Shown here: positions 4,250-44,684 of the stretch, in pieces
How positions within the stretch are numbered: the stretch's first letter is position 1
Layout of the letters: every line of letters starts with the position of its first letter
Virus record (IMG/VR): IMGVR_UViG_3300033388_002455
Coordinates: 1 to 47,838 of that record
Origin: a virus
Length of the DNA stretch: 47,838 nucleotides
Strand: one strand, 5' to 3'
Program-made: the position numbers and the translations under genes
The notes under the pieces: generated by a model
Seen by the model: only the letters and a program-made list of their open reading frames with translations
What the model was told of the DNA's origin: nothing
The model's database searches: none

Positions 4250-5106
4250 TAAAACTCCTCACTTTCTTGCATTTTAAGTAAATCTACTTCGGCAAACCGT
4301 TTGTCGATTATGATTTCGATAGGCTTACGTTTTTGGTGAATAGTATGTATTTCTACAGAAAACCTATCTAATTTTTTTCTTTTATCCTCTTTTAACCAAA
4401 ACATCTTTTTCACAAATTTTGTTCCAGCAGGGAAATAACCTTCACGTTCTAGTATTTCTTGGCATAAATTTAGTTGTAAACCACAATGGTGATAGTTACT
4501 GTCCATAACACATTCTAACTCACCTAATCCTACTTTATACTCATTAGTGGCTCTATTATAGAAAGATTTCTTATCTAACTTTCCGTATGTTTTATAGTCT
4601 CCTAAAAGAATCGCACCTGTCTTCTTATGTTTAGCCAGCACATCAATCATAGTTGCTAAACGTAGATCAGGGGAGAATATGAGACACTCAGGGGAAAGAA
4701 TCTCATATTCTTTGAGGAGGGTATTATCTATAAAATTAGCCATACATCTTTTTGCTTGGACAGTTCTATTTTCATCTGGACCCCAAATAAATCTAGTATT
4801 TTCTACACTTTCTAGTAAATATTCAGCGAATTTATGTATATCTGTACCAAAATCAGCACTATTTTTAGCTTTTTCTGACCATTGTTGCATGATTTCTTCA
4901 GGTTTTCGTCCAAAATACTCTTTTTTCTTCTCATTTTGACTACATTTTAGTGCCATTCCTTCGCTGTCAAACTTTTCAAACCAAGAATGAATGAGAGTCG
5001 TAACTCCTGAGTATCTCACACCATTAGTGTCGTGGTATTGATGCTTTTCTTCATTAAAGCTTATTTCTAGATCAAGTGTTGGGTGTTTTGATTTTTTTAA
5101 TTCCAT
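4249..5106 (-). CDS. PD-(D/E)XK nuclease, RecB/Cas4-like exonuclease
   Basis: 285 aa. Core motifs in order: GTDIH (87-91), E140, D155 in ATMIDVLAKH, the D-x-K pair in GDYKTY (D170, K172), then QLNLCQEILE. These are the RecB-family nuclease signature. It probably resects DNA ends to feed the adjacent Sak4-like ATPase and SSB. N-terminal ISFNEEKHQYHDTNGVRYSG is common in phage PD-(D/E)XK exonucleases. The four Cys of Cas4 Fe-S clusters are not evident. Confidence 0.75.
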   Translation of the reverse strand: MELKKSKHPTLDLEISFNEEKHQYHDTNGVRYSGVTTLIHSWFEKFDSEGMALKCSQNEKKKEYFGRKPEEIMQQWSEKAKNSADFGTDIHKFAEYLLESVENTRFIWGPDENRTVQAKRCMANFIDNTLLKEYEILSPECLIFSPDLRLATMIDVLAKHKKTGAILLGDYKTYGKLDKKSFYNRATNEYKVGLGELECVMDSNYHHCGLQLNLCQEILEREGYFPAGTKFVKKMFWLKEDKRKKLDRFSVEIHTIHQKRKPIEIIIDKRFAEVDLLKMQESEEF

Positions 5107-7589: not shown

Positions 7590-7779
7590 TTATATTCCTG
7601 CCATAATACTCTAGATAATCACTATACATATCATAGTCTTGTAGTATTGGTTTTATTGGTGGTAGTTCACTCCAGATATCTTCCTCTAAAGGTTCATACT
7701 GTTCTACTCGCATAAAATACTGCATTTCTCTTCTTACTTTCTCTCTGATTTCTGCTTCTATTTGTTCTAGTGTTTTCAT
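7582..7779 (-). CDS. Small acidic unknown protein
   Basis: 65 aa, acidic and Tyr-rich C-terminus (YDMYSDYLEYYGRN), helical charged N-terminus. The start is preceded by GAGGTGGAGAA and overlaps the stop of the upstream membrane-protein gene as ATGA. It lies immediately before the polymerase, overlapping it by 8 nt. No family recognised. Confidence 0.65.
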   Translation of the reverse strand: MKTLEQIEAEIREKVRREMQYFMRVEQYEPLEEDIWSELPPIKPILQDYDMYSDYLEYYGRNINE

Positions 7780-7952
7780 TTCTCCACCTCTTCTTTGTTA
7801 TAATAACTTATAAATAATATTGGCACAATAGCCCACCACTTTAAATTCCCCTCTAATTTAAAAAGAATAGTTGTAAAAATAATAAATAATGCTATATTTT
7901 GAAGAACCATCCACTTATAAACTTTATTTATATCTAGCTTTTTAGTTGTCAT
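7776..7952 (-). CDS. Small two-TM membrane protein
   Basis: 58 aa. Two hydrophobic helices, about 18-31 (NIALFIIFTTILF) and 39-52 (WWAIVPILFISYY), are joined by a short charged turn (KLEGNLK). The start follows GAGGAGTAAAT, and the stop overlaps the next ATG. The size and hairpin topology would fit a class II holin or antiholin, or a membrane-acting early protein; the position among replication genes makes lysis less certain. Confidence 0.65.
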   Translation of the reverse strand: MTTKKLDINKVYKWMVLQNIALFIIFTTILFKLEGNLKWWAIVPILFISYYNKEEVEK

Positions 7953-13113: not shown

Positions 13114-13142
13114 TTGACAAACGCTTAAAAATATGTTATATT
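13114..13142 (+). promoter_or_regulatory. Rightward early promoter
   Basis: TTGACA (13114-13119), 17-bp spacer, TATATT (13137-13142), preceded by TGT (extended -10). Would start transcription near 13149, about 30 bases before the GTG-start gene. Main rightward promoter of the divergent region. Confidence 0.85.
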
Positions 13143-13177: not shown

Positions 13178-13489
13178 GTGAACGACGTAAAGAATATAAA
13201 TGATGTGAGTAAGAAGACACTTGAGGACATCAAGAAGAGATACAATATTAATGATACAGAGATTCCACATGTTAAGAAGTTGTTATGGAGACTTAAATGT
13301 AAACTGCCTCGTATGAGCAGTTCAACTAAACAAATATATGCTTCACTTAGGGGTTTGATTCGATGTGGGTATGAGTTAACACCTAAACAGTTTAGTTTAT
13401 TGGAGACATTAGCTAATAAGAGTACATATACTACTAAGTGTGGTGATTCTGAGATACTTACTAATCGTAAGAAGAGTACAGTCGAGTAA
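13178..13489 (+). CDS. First rightward gene, unknown basic protein
   Basis: 103 aa, GTG start at 13178 placed seven bases after GGAGG. Basic and helical; residues about 30-75 (HVKKLLWRLKCKLPRMSSS … GLIRCGYELTPKQF) suggest a compact helical DNA- or protein-binding domain. As the first gene behind the rightward early promoter it is a good candidate regulator, but no family is recognised. Confidence 0.7.
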   Translation: MNDVKNINDVSKKTLEDIKKRYNINDTEIPHVKKLLWRLKCKLPRMSSSTKQIYASLRGLIRCGYELTPKQFSLLETLANKSTYTTKCGDSEILTNRKKSTVE

Positions 13490-13648: not shown

Positions 13649-13677
13649 TTGACATTCAGTCGAGTGTGTGTTATTAT
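13649..13677 (+). promoter_or_regulatory. Promoter of the micro-ORF array
   Basis: TTGACA (13649-13654), 17-bp spacer, TATTAT (13672-13677), with TGT before it. Predicted start near 13684, giving a leader of about 135 nt before the first micro-ORF. Confidence 0.8.
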
Positions 13678-13683
13678 GTAGTT

Positions 13684-13808
13684 AGTAAGTAACTTATTTC
13701 CTGCAACCTACAGGCAGAAGTCAAACTTGAGGTCTTTTTCGGTTGTGAATACATCCGTCATCGGTTTTGAGGGGATTACTCGATGTCAAACAAAATCCCC
13801 GTACTACT
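13684..13808 (+). ncRNA. Structured 5' leader of the micro-ORF transcript
   Basis: About 125 nt without a convincing gene. Possible stems: GCAACC near 13702 with GGTTGT near 13741, and a strong hairpin GGGGATT (13771-13777) with AATCCCC (13794-13800), which ends 8 bases before the first AAGGAG. No known riboswitch class is recognised. It could control access to the first micro-ORF or act as a small RNA. Confidence 0.4.
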
Positions 13809-13819
13809 AAGGAGTTGTT

Positions 13820-13924
13820 ATGTTAATATTTAAGTTATGTTTACTATCAGTGCCTTTTATACTTGTAGCTTTAATGATATTGACTATGATAATACTAATA
13901 AGATTAATATTTGATAGAGTGTAA
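13820..13924 (+). CDS. Micro-ORF 1: single-pass membrane peptide
   Basis: 34 aa, almost wholly hydrophobic (LLSVPFILVALMILTMIILI) with a positively charged end (RLIFDRV). Start follows AAGGAGTTGTT. The stop overlaps the next Shine-Dalgarno site (gTAAGGAG), so the array is translated as a coupled series. Length and topology are like toxin-antitoxin peptides, small holin-like or regulatory membrane peptides. Confidence 0.6.
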   Translation: MLIFKLCLLSVPFILVALMILTMIILIRLIFDRV

Positions 13925-13933
13925 GGAGTTGTT

Positions 13934-14032
13934 ATGAGTGATAGAGTATTTATATTCCTTTTAAAATGTTATTGTTATTTCATAGTTACTGTGATAACAT
14001 CAAGTCTGATATTGTTAGCGGTTATTAACTAA
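13934..14032 (+). CDS. Micro-ORF 2: single-pass membrane peptide
   Basis: 32 aa. Polar start (MSDR), then one membrane span with two Cys (FIFLLKCYCYFIVTVITSS). Same leader as micro-ORF 1; its TAA again overlaps the next site (cTAAGGAG). No similarity to its neighbours beyond the hydrophobic character and the leader. Confidence 0.6.
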   Translation: MSDRVFIFLLKCYCYFIVTVITSSLILLAVIN

Positions 14033-14041
14033 GGAGTTGTT

Positions 14042-14119
14042 ATGCATGATGTTATAATAATATGTTGGTTTATATTTTGTTGTATAGGTATTCTATTATT
14101 GTGGATAGCGCCTAAGTAG
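14042..14119 (+). CDS. Micro-ORF 3: single-pass membrane peptide
   Basis: 25 aa: MHD followed by a Trp/Cys-rich span (VIIICWFIFCCIGILLLWIA) and PK. Same AAGGAGTTGTT leader. The shortest of the four; barely long enough to span a membrane once. Confidence 0.55.
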   Translation: MHDVIIICWFIFCCIGILLLWIAPK

Positions 14120-14163
14120 TCAACTACTATAACTAGTCGTTACAGGTAACCAGAGGAGTTGTT

Positions 14164-14265
14164 ATGTATGATAAGTTACTTGAATGCCTTGCTATGCCAA
14201 ACTGTATGATTATAGTTATAATTATTGGGTTCATAGGCTATATACTAGAACATGTCCTTTACTAG
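14164..14265 (+). CDS. Micro-ORF 4: single-pass membrane peptide
   Basis: 33 aa: amphipathic start MYDKLLECLAMPNC, then IIVIIIGFIGYIL and EHVLY. Leader is GAGGAGTTGTT. Last of the array; the GC-rich island begins just after it. Confidence 0.55.
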   Translation: MYDKLLECLAMPNCMIIVIIIGFIGYILEHVLY

Positions 14266-14629
14266 TTGCTACAGGTAAGCCTACTCCCTCCCCACACTCA
14301 CCTTCACTGCGCTCAGGATACCCACCTCAAGCCCTCAGATCTCACCACAACTACAGCACACAAGCGCACACCACAACCAAACGTCCTATCTATACTATAT
14401 AAGTAATACTACTAAGGTATGGCAAATAGTGCTTGTTTATGCCGAATATTAGTACAGCCGCAGGCACTGCGTAGCAGTAGTATAATGCTTAGTGGTGCGT
14501 AGAGTGAGATGAGCAGGTGGGGGGGTAGGGGTTGGTTTATTGTTGGGGTTGTGGGGGGTACCCTCCTTCGTAAATTCACAAAAAAAAGCAGAATATGCTC
14601 ACATCCTAAGCAATTAGCCCTACTCAGAC
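14266..14629. other. GC-rich intergenic island with C-rich then G-rich strand asymmetry
   Basis: About 364 bases without a credible gene; open frames here are composition artefacts without Shine-Dalgarno sites. Bases 14277-14385 are C-rich and almost G-poor on the top strand; 14495-14560 are G-rich and nearly C-free, with G runs at 14519-14525, 14528-14531, 14545-14548 and 14553-14558 that could form a G-quadruplex (loops 2, 13 and 4). CCACAACC (14371-14378) is exactly complementary to GGTTGTGG (14547-14554), and the flanks are partly complementary. Unlike anything else in this AT-rich genome. Possible replication origin, packaging site, structured RNA or acquired DNA. Confidence 0.6.
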
Positions 14630-14658
14630 TTGACACCTCTCCTAATGCATGTTATAAT
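14630..14658 (+). promoter_or_regulatory. Rightward promoter
   Basis: TTGACA (14630-14635), 17-bp spacer ending TGT, TATAAT (14653-14658): consensus in both hexamers plus an extended -10. It restarts transcription after the GC island. Confidence 0.92.
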
Positions 14659-14680: not shown

Positions 14681-14824
14681 ATGACAGAAGAAATTAGAAT
14701 AGATGTAAGTCCAGGCGAGTCAGTAATAGATGCGGCATTTAAATGGCATAAAGATAATCCAAATATAACAATAATACATGTATTGTTCGGAATTGGTTAC
14801 GTGATCTTAATAATTAAAAAGTAA
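14681..14824 (+). CDS. Small membrane-anchored protein
   Basis: 47 aa from the ATG at 14681, after AGGAG with an 11-base gap. The frame is open upstream to 14630, but that part contains the promoter, so the shorter start is chosen. Acidic N-terminal part (EEIRIDVSPGESVIDAAFKW) and a C-terminal membrane helix (IIHVLFGIGYVILII) ending in KK. No family recognised. Confidence 0.65.
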   Translation: MTEEIRIDVSPGESVIDAAFKWHKDNPNITIIHVLFGIGYVILIIKK

Positions 14825-15218: not shown

Positions 15219-15311
15219 ATGAAATGCCACAAATGCGGATCTACCGAGACAATAGAAAAGTTACACTGCTGGATATGTGCTGATTGCCGCGTCATTATAA
15301 CTTATAAGTAG
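15219..15311 (+). CDS. Tiny zinc-ribbon protein
   Basis: 30 aa: CHKC (3-6), then C17, C20 and C23 in CWICADC. A minimal zinc ribbon. ATG follows AAGGAGAACTAA, which overlaps the end of the previous gene. Too short for the usual gene-calling cut-offs, but the start site and cysteine spacing support it. Confidence 0.6.
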   Translation: MKCHKCGSTETIEKLHCWICADCRVIITYK

Positions 15312-15935: not shown

Positions 15936-16423
15936 TTATAATAGCAAAAAGCATGTATTTCGGCATACCAGGTAAAACTAAATCAGTAGCGCAAGCAAAA
16001 ACTAAACTAATGCGCAAATTTGCCGTAGTAAAACACGGAGATAATAATTACATCAAAGCTCCAGGAGAAGCTACTTCTACAGGTGCATATATGTTTGATT
16101 TTACTCTGGATAATCCTGTAGGTATTACCTTTAAAGATCTATTTGAGATATACAATAGTATACCTAAAAACTTAATGGATGAGTATAAACAAGTACTTAA
16201 GTCTATTGAGGAAGTAAATCCTGATTTAGATGATGATGAGAATGTTGGCGAAGAAGGCACTGTATCAGATCAAAAGTATTGGTTCCTTAATATGAAGAAA
16301 CAAGAGTATGAAGGATTTATTGAAGAATATCTTAACAATATCAGAAAAGAAGCTGAAGAAGAACGCGAAGATGTCATGAAAATGATCGAAGAAGGTGAAA
16401 ATGCTAAAAAAGATAGTAAGTAA
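15932..16423 (+). CDS. Unknown protein with acidic coiled-coil tail
   Basis: 163 aa. Globular N-terminal part (IIIAKSMYFGIPGKTKSVAQ) and a long acidic helix from about 115 (KKQEYEGFIEEYLNNIRKEAEEE). No family recognised. Last 23 nt overlap the following membrane-protein gene. Confidence 0.7.
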   Translation: MIIIAKSMYFGIPGKTKSVAQAKTKLMRKFAVVKHGDNNYIKAPGEATSTGAYMFDFTLDNPVGITFKDLFEIYNSIPKNLMDEYKQVLKSIEEVNPDLDDDENVGEEGTVSDQKYWFLNMKKQEYEGFIEEYLNNIRKEAEEEREDVMKMIEEGENAKKDSK

Positions 16424-16544
16424 CTTATTATTAATTACCACTGCCGTATTATTTATAGTATTATTCAATGCCATAGTGTGGACAGTATTTGTAGAAACTG
16501 GTAAAATTATTAGAGAAAATGGTGGAATTGTGCATATAGAATAA
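16401..16544 (+). CDS. Small single-pass membrane protein
   Basis: 47 aa. Basic start (MLKKIVSN), one membrane helix (LLLITTAVLFIVLFNAIVWTVFV), then a short polar tail. Starts inside the previous gene behind GAAGGTGAAA. Topology is N-in, C-out by the positive-inside rule. Ends three bases before a promoter. Confidence 0.6.
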   Translation: MLKKIVSNLLLITTAVLFIVLFNAIVWTVFVETGKIIRENGGIVHIE

Positions 16545-16546
16545 AC

Positions 16547-16575
16547 TTGACTTTACTACACATATGTGGTATAAT
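16547..16575 (+). promoter_or_regulatory. Rightward promoter upstream of a leader peptide
   Basis: TTGACT (16547-16552), 17-bp spacer ending TGG, TATAAT (16570-16575). Transcription would start near 16582, just before the leader ORF's AAGGAG. Confidence 0.88.
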
Positions 16576-16602
16576 ATAGACATAGTGGAAGGAGAAATCA
16601 CT

Positions 16603-16632
16603 ATGAGGTACCAAACTCTCAAAAGGCCCTGA
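16603..16632 (+). CDS. Nine-residue leader peptide ORF
   Basis: MRYQTLKRP and a TGA stop. It has a full AAGGAG (16589-16594) eight bases before the ATG, as good as any real gene here. Its last codons and stop (16621-16632) cover the 5' arm of the long hairpin at 16622-16684, so a ribosome on the leader would block that stem. This is the layout of an attenuator or translation-dependent switch; no repeated amino-acid codon run is present. Confidence 0.5.
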   Translation: MRYQTLKRP

Positions 16633-16684
16633 CGTATTTCCCATAAACATCCATACTTTCGGATTGGGACGAATTAGGGCCTTT
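16622..16684 (+). promoter_or_regulatory. Long hairpin, possible attenuator or structured RNA
   Basis: Outer stem AAAGGCCCT (16622-16630) with AGGGCCTTT (16676-16684), nine perfect pairs; inner stem TCCCA/TGGGA, and an apical ATCC/GGAT. It is followed by GCTTTAGG, not a U-run, so it is not a standard terminator. The Shine-Dalgarno site of the next gene (AGGAGG, 16690-16695) begins six bases later and is left free. Confidence 0.55.
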
Positions 16685-16700
16685 GCTTTAGGAGGTTAAT

Positions 16701-44288: not shown

Positions 44289-44684
44289 TTAACCTTTCTT
44301 CTTATCTACTAAAGATCTTAGCGAAGTATATATACCTAGAAAACTACCAGCAATACCAGCTAAAAATTGATTATACTCTACTACACCTAATCCCATAGCT
44401 ACTAATAATATTACAAATACTATACTACATACAGGACGCCAGGATTTACTTAAAAGATTTCCATGTTCTTGTTCGGCTACAGCTATTTTAGCGTTAGCTT
44501 CTATTACTAGACTTTGTAGTTGTAAAACTTTACTAGATACTTGTGCTTCTATCTCAGCTAACTTGTTTTTTAACTCAGCTTTCTTAACTGCTATATTACC
44601 AAGTTCTTCTTTTGAATCGTGTAAGTTGTCAATAAGATCTGCTGCGGGTTTAAATATACTACCCAGAAAACTAAAAATCGACAT
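44289..44684 (-). CDS. Holin of the 3-TM (GTA-holin-like) superfamily
   Basis: 131 aa. A charged coiled region (ELGNIAVKKAELKNKLAEIEAQ) is followed by SWRPVCSIVFVILLVAMGLG and LAGIAGSFLGIYTSLRSLV; the W-R-P before the membrane part is a hallmark of 3TM holin-like proteins. N-terminal FLGSIFKPAADLI may dip into the membrane. It would form lesions that let the M15 endolysin out. Encoded late in the leftward arm, far from the endolysin gene. Confidence 0.7.
   Translation of the reverse strand: MSIFSFLGSIFKPAADLIDNLHDSKEELGNIAVKKAELKNKLAEIEAQVSSKVLQLQSLVIEANAKIAVAEQEHGNLLSKSWRPVCSIVFVILLVAMGLGVVEYNQFLAGIAGSFLGIYTSLRSLVDKKKG

Follow-up and report, generated by a model that had tools for sequence, protein, structure and literature searches.

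Near the junction of the two gene arms of an uncultured phage, four very short open reading frames (ORFs) begin behind exactly the same sequence, and each encodes a hydrophobic peptide unlike the other three. What kind of locus repeats its start sites and nothing after them? It could be an operon of membrane peptides, a regulatory target, a toxin–antitoxin locus, a set of lysis proteins or a by-product of repeats in AT-rich DNA. Here we analyse IMG/VR virus record IMGVR_UViG_3300033388_002455, the 47,838 bases of which constitute the window. The four-unit array behind one promoter-like site is genuine. Our belief is evenly divided for and against the reading that we develop below, in which the array is an operon specific to one lineage, its micropeptides being co-translated, spanning the membrane once and acting at the host inner membrane.

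Genome context

The left arm, on the minus strand, carries primase-like, Sak4-like, exonuclease, DNA polymerase, helicase and RusA-like resolvase genes, as well as genes for an endolysin (971–1441; phrog_465, E 9.7e-33) and a holin-family protein (44289–44684; phrog_3427, E 1.9e-15), both on the other strand from the array. On the plus strand, the right arm includes a terminase-like gene, which matches annotated phage terminases weakly (only 23–25% identity), and long virion-like ORFs. The array is on the plus strand, near the junction of these arms. The G+C content of the window is 0.326.

Four units with the same start cassette

The start cassette AGGAGTTGTTATG occurs in four exact copies (Table 1), at the 108–122-bp intervals that an earlier sequence-only reading had described (114, 108 and 122 bases between successive copies), and no fifth exact copy is present elsewhere in the 47.8-kb record. 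Cassettes 1 and 3 are identical over 17 bases (ACTAAGGAGTTGTTATG). Identity between units ends at the ATG. The Shine–Dalgarno (SD) motif AGGAG is common in this phage, and the spacer AGGAGTTGTT (TTGTT) follows it in the array only. The first two stops had been said to overlap the next SD, and the sequence bears this out for the TAA codons of ORF1 and ORF2. The second repeat, ACTAGT...TACAGGTAA, which had been taken to mark the units in general, does so for units 3 and 4 and not for units 1 and 2: it is present in two copies, one after ORF3 and one after ORF4, and the sequence common to these two units is ACTAGTNGNTACAGGTAA. Separately, a cassette copy with one mismatch (AGAAGTTGTTATG) lies at 13275–13287, within the preceding 103-amino-acid ORF; its ATG opens just three codons and it is probably a chance occurrence.

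Table 1 Features of the array and of the region that precedes it
Feature	Positions	Strand	Remarks
Sigma-70-type promoter-like site, TTGACA-17-TATTAT, with TG before the -10	13649–13677	+	11/12, consensus match only
7-bp hairpin GGGGATT/AATCCCC upstream of the array	13771–13800	+	z -0.68, not more stable than shuffles
Possible 16-codon leader ORF, MSNKIPVLLRSCYVNI	13783–13833	+	Mechanical ORF, SD-like GAGGGG, overlaps ORF1 start
Start cassette 1, AGGAGTTGTTATG	13810–13822	+	Exact repeat
ORF1, 34 amino acids, MLIFKLCLLSVPFILVALMILTMIILIRLIFDRV	13820–13924	+	One transmembrane segment, net +2
Start cassette 2	13924–13936	+	SD overlaps ORF1 stop
ORF2, 32 amino acids, MSDRVFIFLLKCYCYFIVTVITSSLILLAVIN	13934–14032	+	One transmembrane segment
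Start cassette 3	14032–14044	+	SD overlaps ORF2 stop
ORF3, 25 amino acids, MHDVIIICWFIFCCIGILLLWIAPK	14042–14119	+	One transmembrane segment
Tail repeat copy 1, ACTAGTCGTTACAGGTAA	14132–14149	+	After ORF3
Start cassette 4	14154–14166	+	Exact repeat
ORF4, 33 amino acids, MYDKLLECLAMPNCMIIVIIIGFIGYILEHVLY	14164–14265	+	One transmembrane segment, net -2
Tail repeat copy 2, ACTAGTTGCTACAGGTAA	14261–14278	+	Overlaps ORF4 stop

The products agree with the earlier description of four hydrophobic membrane peptides of 25–34 codons: their best 18-residue Kyte–Doolittle (KD) means are 2.97, 2.49, 2.99 and 2.41 for ORF1 to ORF4. They were also said to have no obvious sequence in common, and their pairwise similarity is indeed no greater than that of shuffled sequences (P 0.27–0.88). 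The sole common feature is an N-terminal M-x-D in units 2–4. Coding DNA shows no homology among the units, except between units 3 and 4 through the common tail repeat, and searches of Pfam, PHROGs and NCBIfam returned no family match for any of the four peptides.

The consensus promoter attributed to the array is present as a promoter-like site with 11 of 12 matches, from which a transcript would be expected to start near 13684. Strong sigma-70-like sites are found at 13114, 13649, 14630 and 15357, as expected for a host-transcribed region; overall, the array region has 20 promoter-like sites, compared with 13.1 in shuffles. The accompanying claim of a structured leader did not hold: the leader (13685–13840) is no more stably folded than its shuffled versions (z +0.43), and the same is true of the whole transcript (z +1.13) and of the hairpin listed in Table 1. 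The short ORF that overlaps the start of ORF1 may, at a stretch, encode a leader peptide.

Comparison with chance

When the whole window was subjected to 200 dinucleotide shuffles, none of the 200 contained three or more close copies of any 13-nucleotide start site; the best result, in a single shuffle, was two close copies, compared with the four observed. Exact repeated start regions never exceeded two copies in the other 123 phage records of a comparison sample (1.1 Mb and 124 records including the window), most of which had been chosen for carrying one copy of the motif and are therefore non-random.

With each ATG held fixed and the rest of the unit shuffled, the probability of an ORF of at least 25 codons with a KD value of at least 2 was 0.008, 0.025, 0.020 and 0.014 for the four units, and the joint probability is around 5e-8, a product that assumes independent units. 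Hydrophobicity by itself is less striking because T-rich DNA yields hydrophobic peptides readily: a KD value of at least 2 is reached by 16% of mechanical ORFs of 25–34 amino acids. Among small ORFs outside larger genes that are preceded by an SD, all four in the array pass a transmembrane cut-off of 1.9 (KD), as do two others in the window (14681–14824, and 7776–7952 on the minus strand).

Distribution among relatives

Searches of IMG/VR with the portal, capsid, terminase and a neighbouring gene led to a single close relative, a contig of 21 kb (L001/L127) in which the portal, capsid and terminase are 79%, 84% and 72% identical to those of the window. The equivalent interval in the relative is bounded on one side by a weakly similar gene (13178–13489 in the window, 157–417 in L001; E 6e-4) and on the other by a 30-amino-acid zinc-ribbon-like peptide that is 67% identical (15219–15311 and 1141–1233). 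Neither the array nor the cassette is present between these flanks. We therefore regard the array as accessory to a single lineage, whether it was gained here or lost from the relative. The relative has other small hydrophobic ORFs past the zinc-ribbon peptide (1230–1364 and 1488–1691). Within its equivalent interval is a perfect 11-bp tandem repeat (CTACTAGCATA) of 7.6 copies (L001 569–652).

Two distant terminase matches in IMG/VR (33–39% identity) are on short contigs. The portal had no match in deposited phages or in genome contigs, and the DNA of the array region had none in deposited phages or the array in plasmids. The paired-cassette pattern was absent from the viral and genome contigs searched. 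The single-cassette pattern was found at 120 loci in viral contigs, which served as a control sample; none is a relative with the array. One other phage record (L071) has two exact copies of a different start region (GGAGGATTCTATG), with ATGs at 4373 and 4484, the first of which opens a 33-amino-acid hydrophobic peptide; this pair is possibly a two-unit analogue of the array.

Neighbouring features

Beside the array is a non-coding tract (14280–14560) in which a C-rich half is followed by a G-rich half. Its counterpart in the relative (L001 660–900) has the same layout but little sequence identity to it, and the G+C content of the two is 0.44–0.46. The tract is a possible replication origin or large hairpin, but the two versions fold only slightly better than shuffles (z -0.9 in the window and -1.9 in L001). 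Two small ORFs near the array (14681–14824 and 16401–16544; 47 amino acids each) encode single transmembrane segments without homology by eye to the array peptides; the former has a sigma-70 promoter match of 12/12 at 14630–14658.

Further along, a leader is kept in both phages (16552–16700 in the window, 2364–2515 in L001). It has a TTGAC(T/A)...TATAAT promoter followed, at 16581–16700 in the window, by a promoter-proximal 7-bp hairpin (CATAGTG...CACTATG) with an SD in the loop, by a 9-codon ORF (MRYQTLKRP in the window, MRYHILRAL in L001) and by a larger hairpin with arms that differ between the two phages yet pair in both. The fold has z values of -3.0 and -2.4, no Rfam family was matched at the gathering score, and among viral contigs the exact motif occurs in the relative only. 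This looks like a real regulatory leader, and as a finding it is stronger than the array.

A proposed micropeptide operon and its alternatives

The array consists of co-directional units of SD, start, ORF and stop behind one promoter-like site, as in translated small-ORF operons, and the four ORFs are likely to be translated. We propose that host sigma-70 polymerase would transcribe the array early from 13649–13677, a timing suggested by the promoter matches alone. On the resulting single mRNA the same translation-initiation region would occur four times, and four unrelated single-pass peptides of 25–34 amino acids would therefore be made side by side; ORF1, ORF2 and ORF3 lie close together, each of the first two stops overlapping the SD that follows. 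During takeover the peptides may then enter and alter the inner membrane of the host, where they could, for instance, block a second phage or a membrane process. In favour of this proposal are the four exact start regions with a spacer confined to the array, the open hydrophobic frames behind them, the fusion of the ORF1 and ORF2 stops with the next SD, as in a translated operon, the strong sigma-70-like sites nearby and the location of the lysis genes elsewhere. Counting against it are the sole close relative, which lacks the array, the absence of paired cassettes from the collections searched, the ease with which AT-rich, T-rich DNA gives hydrophobic peptides, and the lack of family matches.

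How the units arose is a separate matter. The array had been interpreted as copied leaders with diverged coding parts. Comparisons with shuffles and with other start sites give statistical support to the copying of the start regions in front of membrane peptides, whereas divergence is just one option: the coding parts may never have been copies, because no residual homology exists between them. It is conceivable, though rather unlikely, that a start region of 13–15 nucleotides was copied ahead of T-rich DNA, or that gene conversion kept its copies there identical, and that the peptides were born from non-coding sequence. If so, the locus would be a nursery in which new membrane genes of the phage find a ribosome site already in place, and several peptides would be produced at matched levels.

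The repeated 13–15 nucleotides could instead be the functional element, an mRNA target through which an RNA-binding regulator or small RNA governs all four starts, such that the peptides may matter less. The TTGTT spacer is identical in all four units, the coding parts of which lack any likeness, and this identity exceeds what SD strength alone needs; elsewhere in this phage, AGGAG is often followed by other spacers. We nonetheless consider such a target unlikely: the record contains no convincing complementary RNA (the best unrelated duplex has -19.1 kcal/mol, compared with -18.5 kcal/mol for the best of five shuffled queries), and every copy coincides exactly with the start of a frame that is open and hydrophobic, a placement for which a purely regulatory site has no need. 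A type I toxin–antitoxin-like locus, in which hydrophobic toxins of 25–35 amino acids are repressed by antisense RNA, would account for the small hydrophobic transmembrane peptides (18-residue KD means of 2.4–3.0 in all four), which resemble LdrD (35 amino acids) and Fst (33 amino acids) in size and in their single transmembrane segment (PMC8309996). There is a weak antisense promoter-like site, TTGACT-17-AATAAT, on the minus strand (14123–14095; 10/12). No antisense site reaches 11–12 matches, however, in a region that is generally rich in promoter-like sites, and neither Rfam nor the toxin families of Pfam, NCBIfam and PHROG yielded a match; we judge this explanation distinctly unlikely.

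Frames might also have been left open by chance among short direct repeats of AT-rich, non-coding DNA next to a putative replication origin. The array adjoins the G+C-rich, strand-asymmetric non-coding tract at 14280–14560, and the same interval in the relative holds the 7.6-copy tandem repeat instead of genes, indicating an interval that accumulates repeats. An artefact of this kind is quite improbable in light of the joint probability obtained from shuffles for all four frames being open and hydrophobic once their starts are fixed; moreover, the repeats run precisely as far as the start codon, and two of the stops border directly on the SD that follows. A role in lysis or its timing, which the sequence-only reading had raised, is the most improbable explanation. 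Phages need membrane-acting lysis factors, and small hydrophobic peptides could act in the manner of holins or pinholins. However, lysis is disfavoured because the holin and endolysin genes sit elsewhere, on the other strand; the array is served by a sigma-70-like promoter of its own, one of several that look early, is not placed with the endolysin, and its peptides match no holin profile.

Comparison with known systems

The proposed operon can be set beside the host takeover module of SPO1, which comprises 26 genes with products that include soluble proteins, such as the 25-kDa Gp53 (PMC6873191). By analogy, the array might be a compact phage gene cluster of the same kind, thought to alter host processes and expected to be expressed early. 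It differs in that it consists of only four membrane peptides of 25–34 amino acids with identical start regions, and at the DNA level the region matches nothing in the collection of phages. The type I toxins of the Ldr/Fst and Ibs families are similarly short (around 20–35 amino acids) with one helical transmembrane segment, and Ldr genes lie in long direct repeats (PMC8309996). In Ldr, however, the peptide is repeated too (LdrA–LdrD are 57% identical; PMC8309996), whereas the array peptides are unrelated, the start region alone repeats and there is no recognised antisense RNA gene. Like phage holins (PHROG 3427 and others), the array peptides are hydrophobic and would act on membranes; unlike them, they are separate from the recognisable holin gene of this phage.

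To our knowledge, small membrane proteins are usually encoded by isolated genes with unrelated start regions, not by arrays with one exact start sequence. In size and in their single transmembrane segment, the array peptides resemble the small bacterial and phage membrane proteins listed in catalogues such as PMC11364881, which gene callers often overlook. A set in which the start region alone is repeated had no match in the literature searched, coverage of which was partial. Small membrane peptides and takeover clusters are thus already known, and identical start regions before unrelated coding parts are the unusual element. Small membrane peptides of phages often escape annotation; an array with a common ribosome site and unrelated coding parts would illustrate how a phage can acquire several membrane effectors in one step, and repeated exact start regions provide a simple sequence signature for finding more such arrays.
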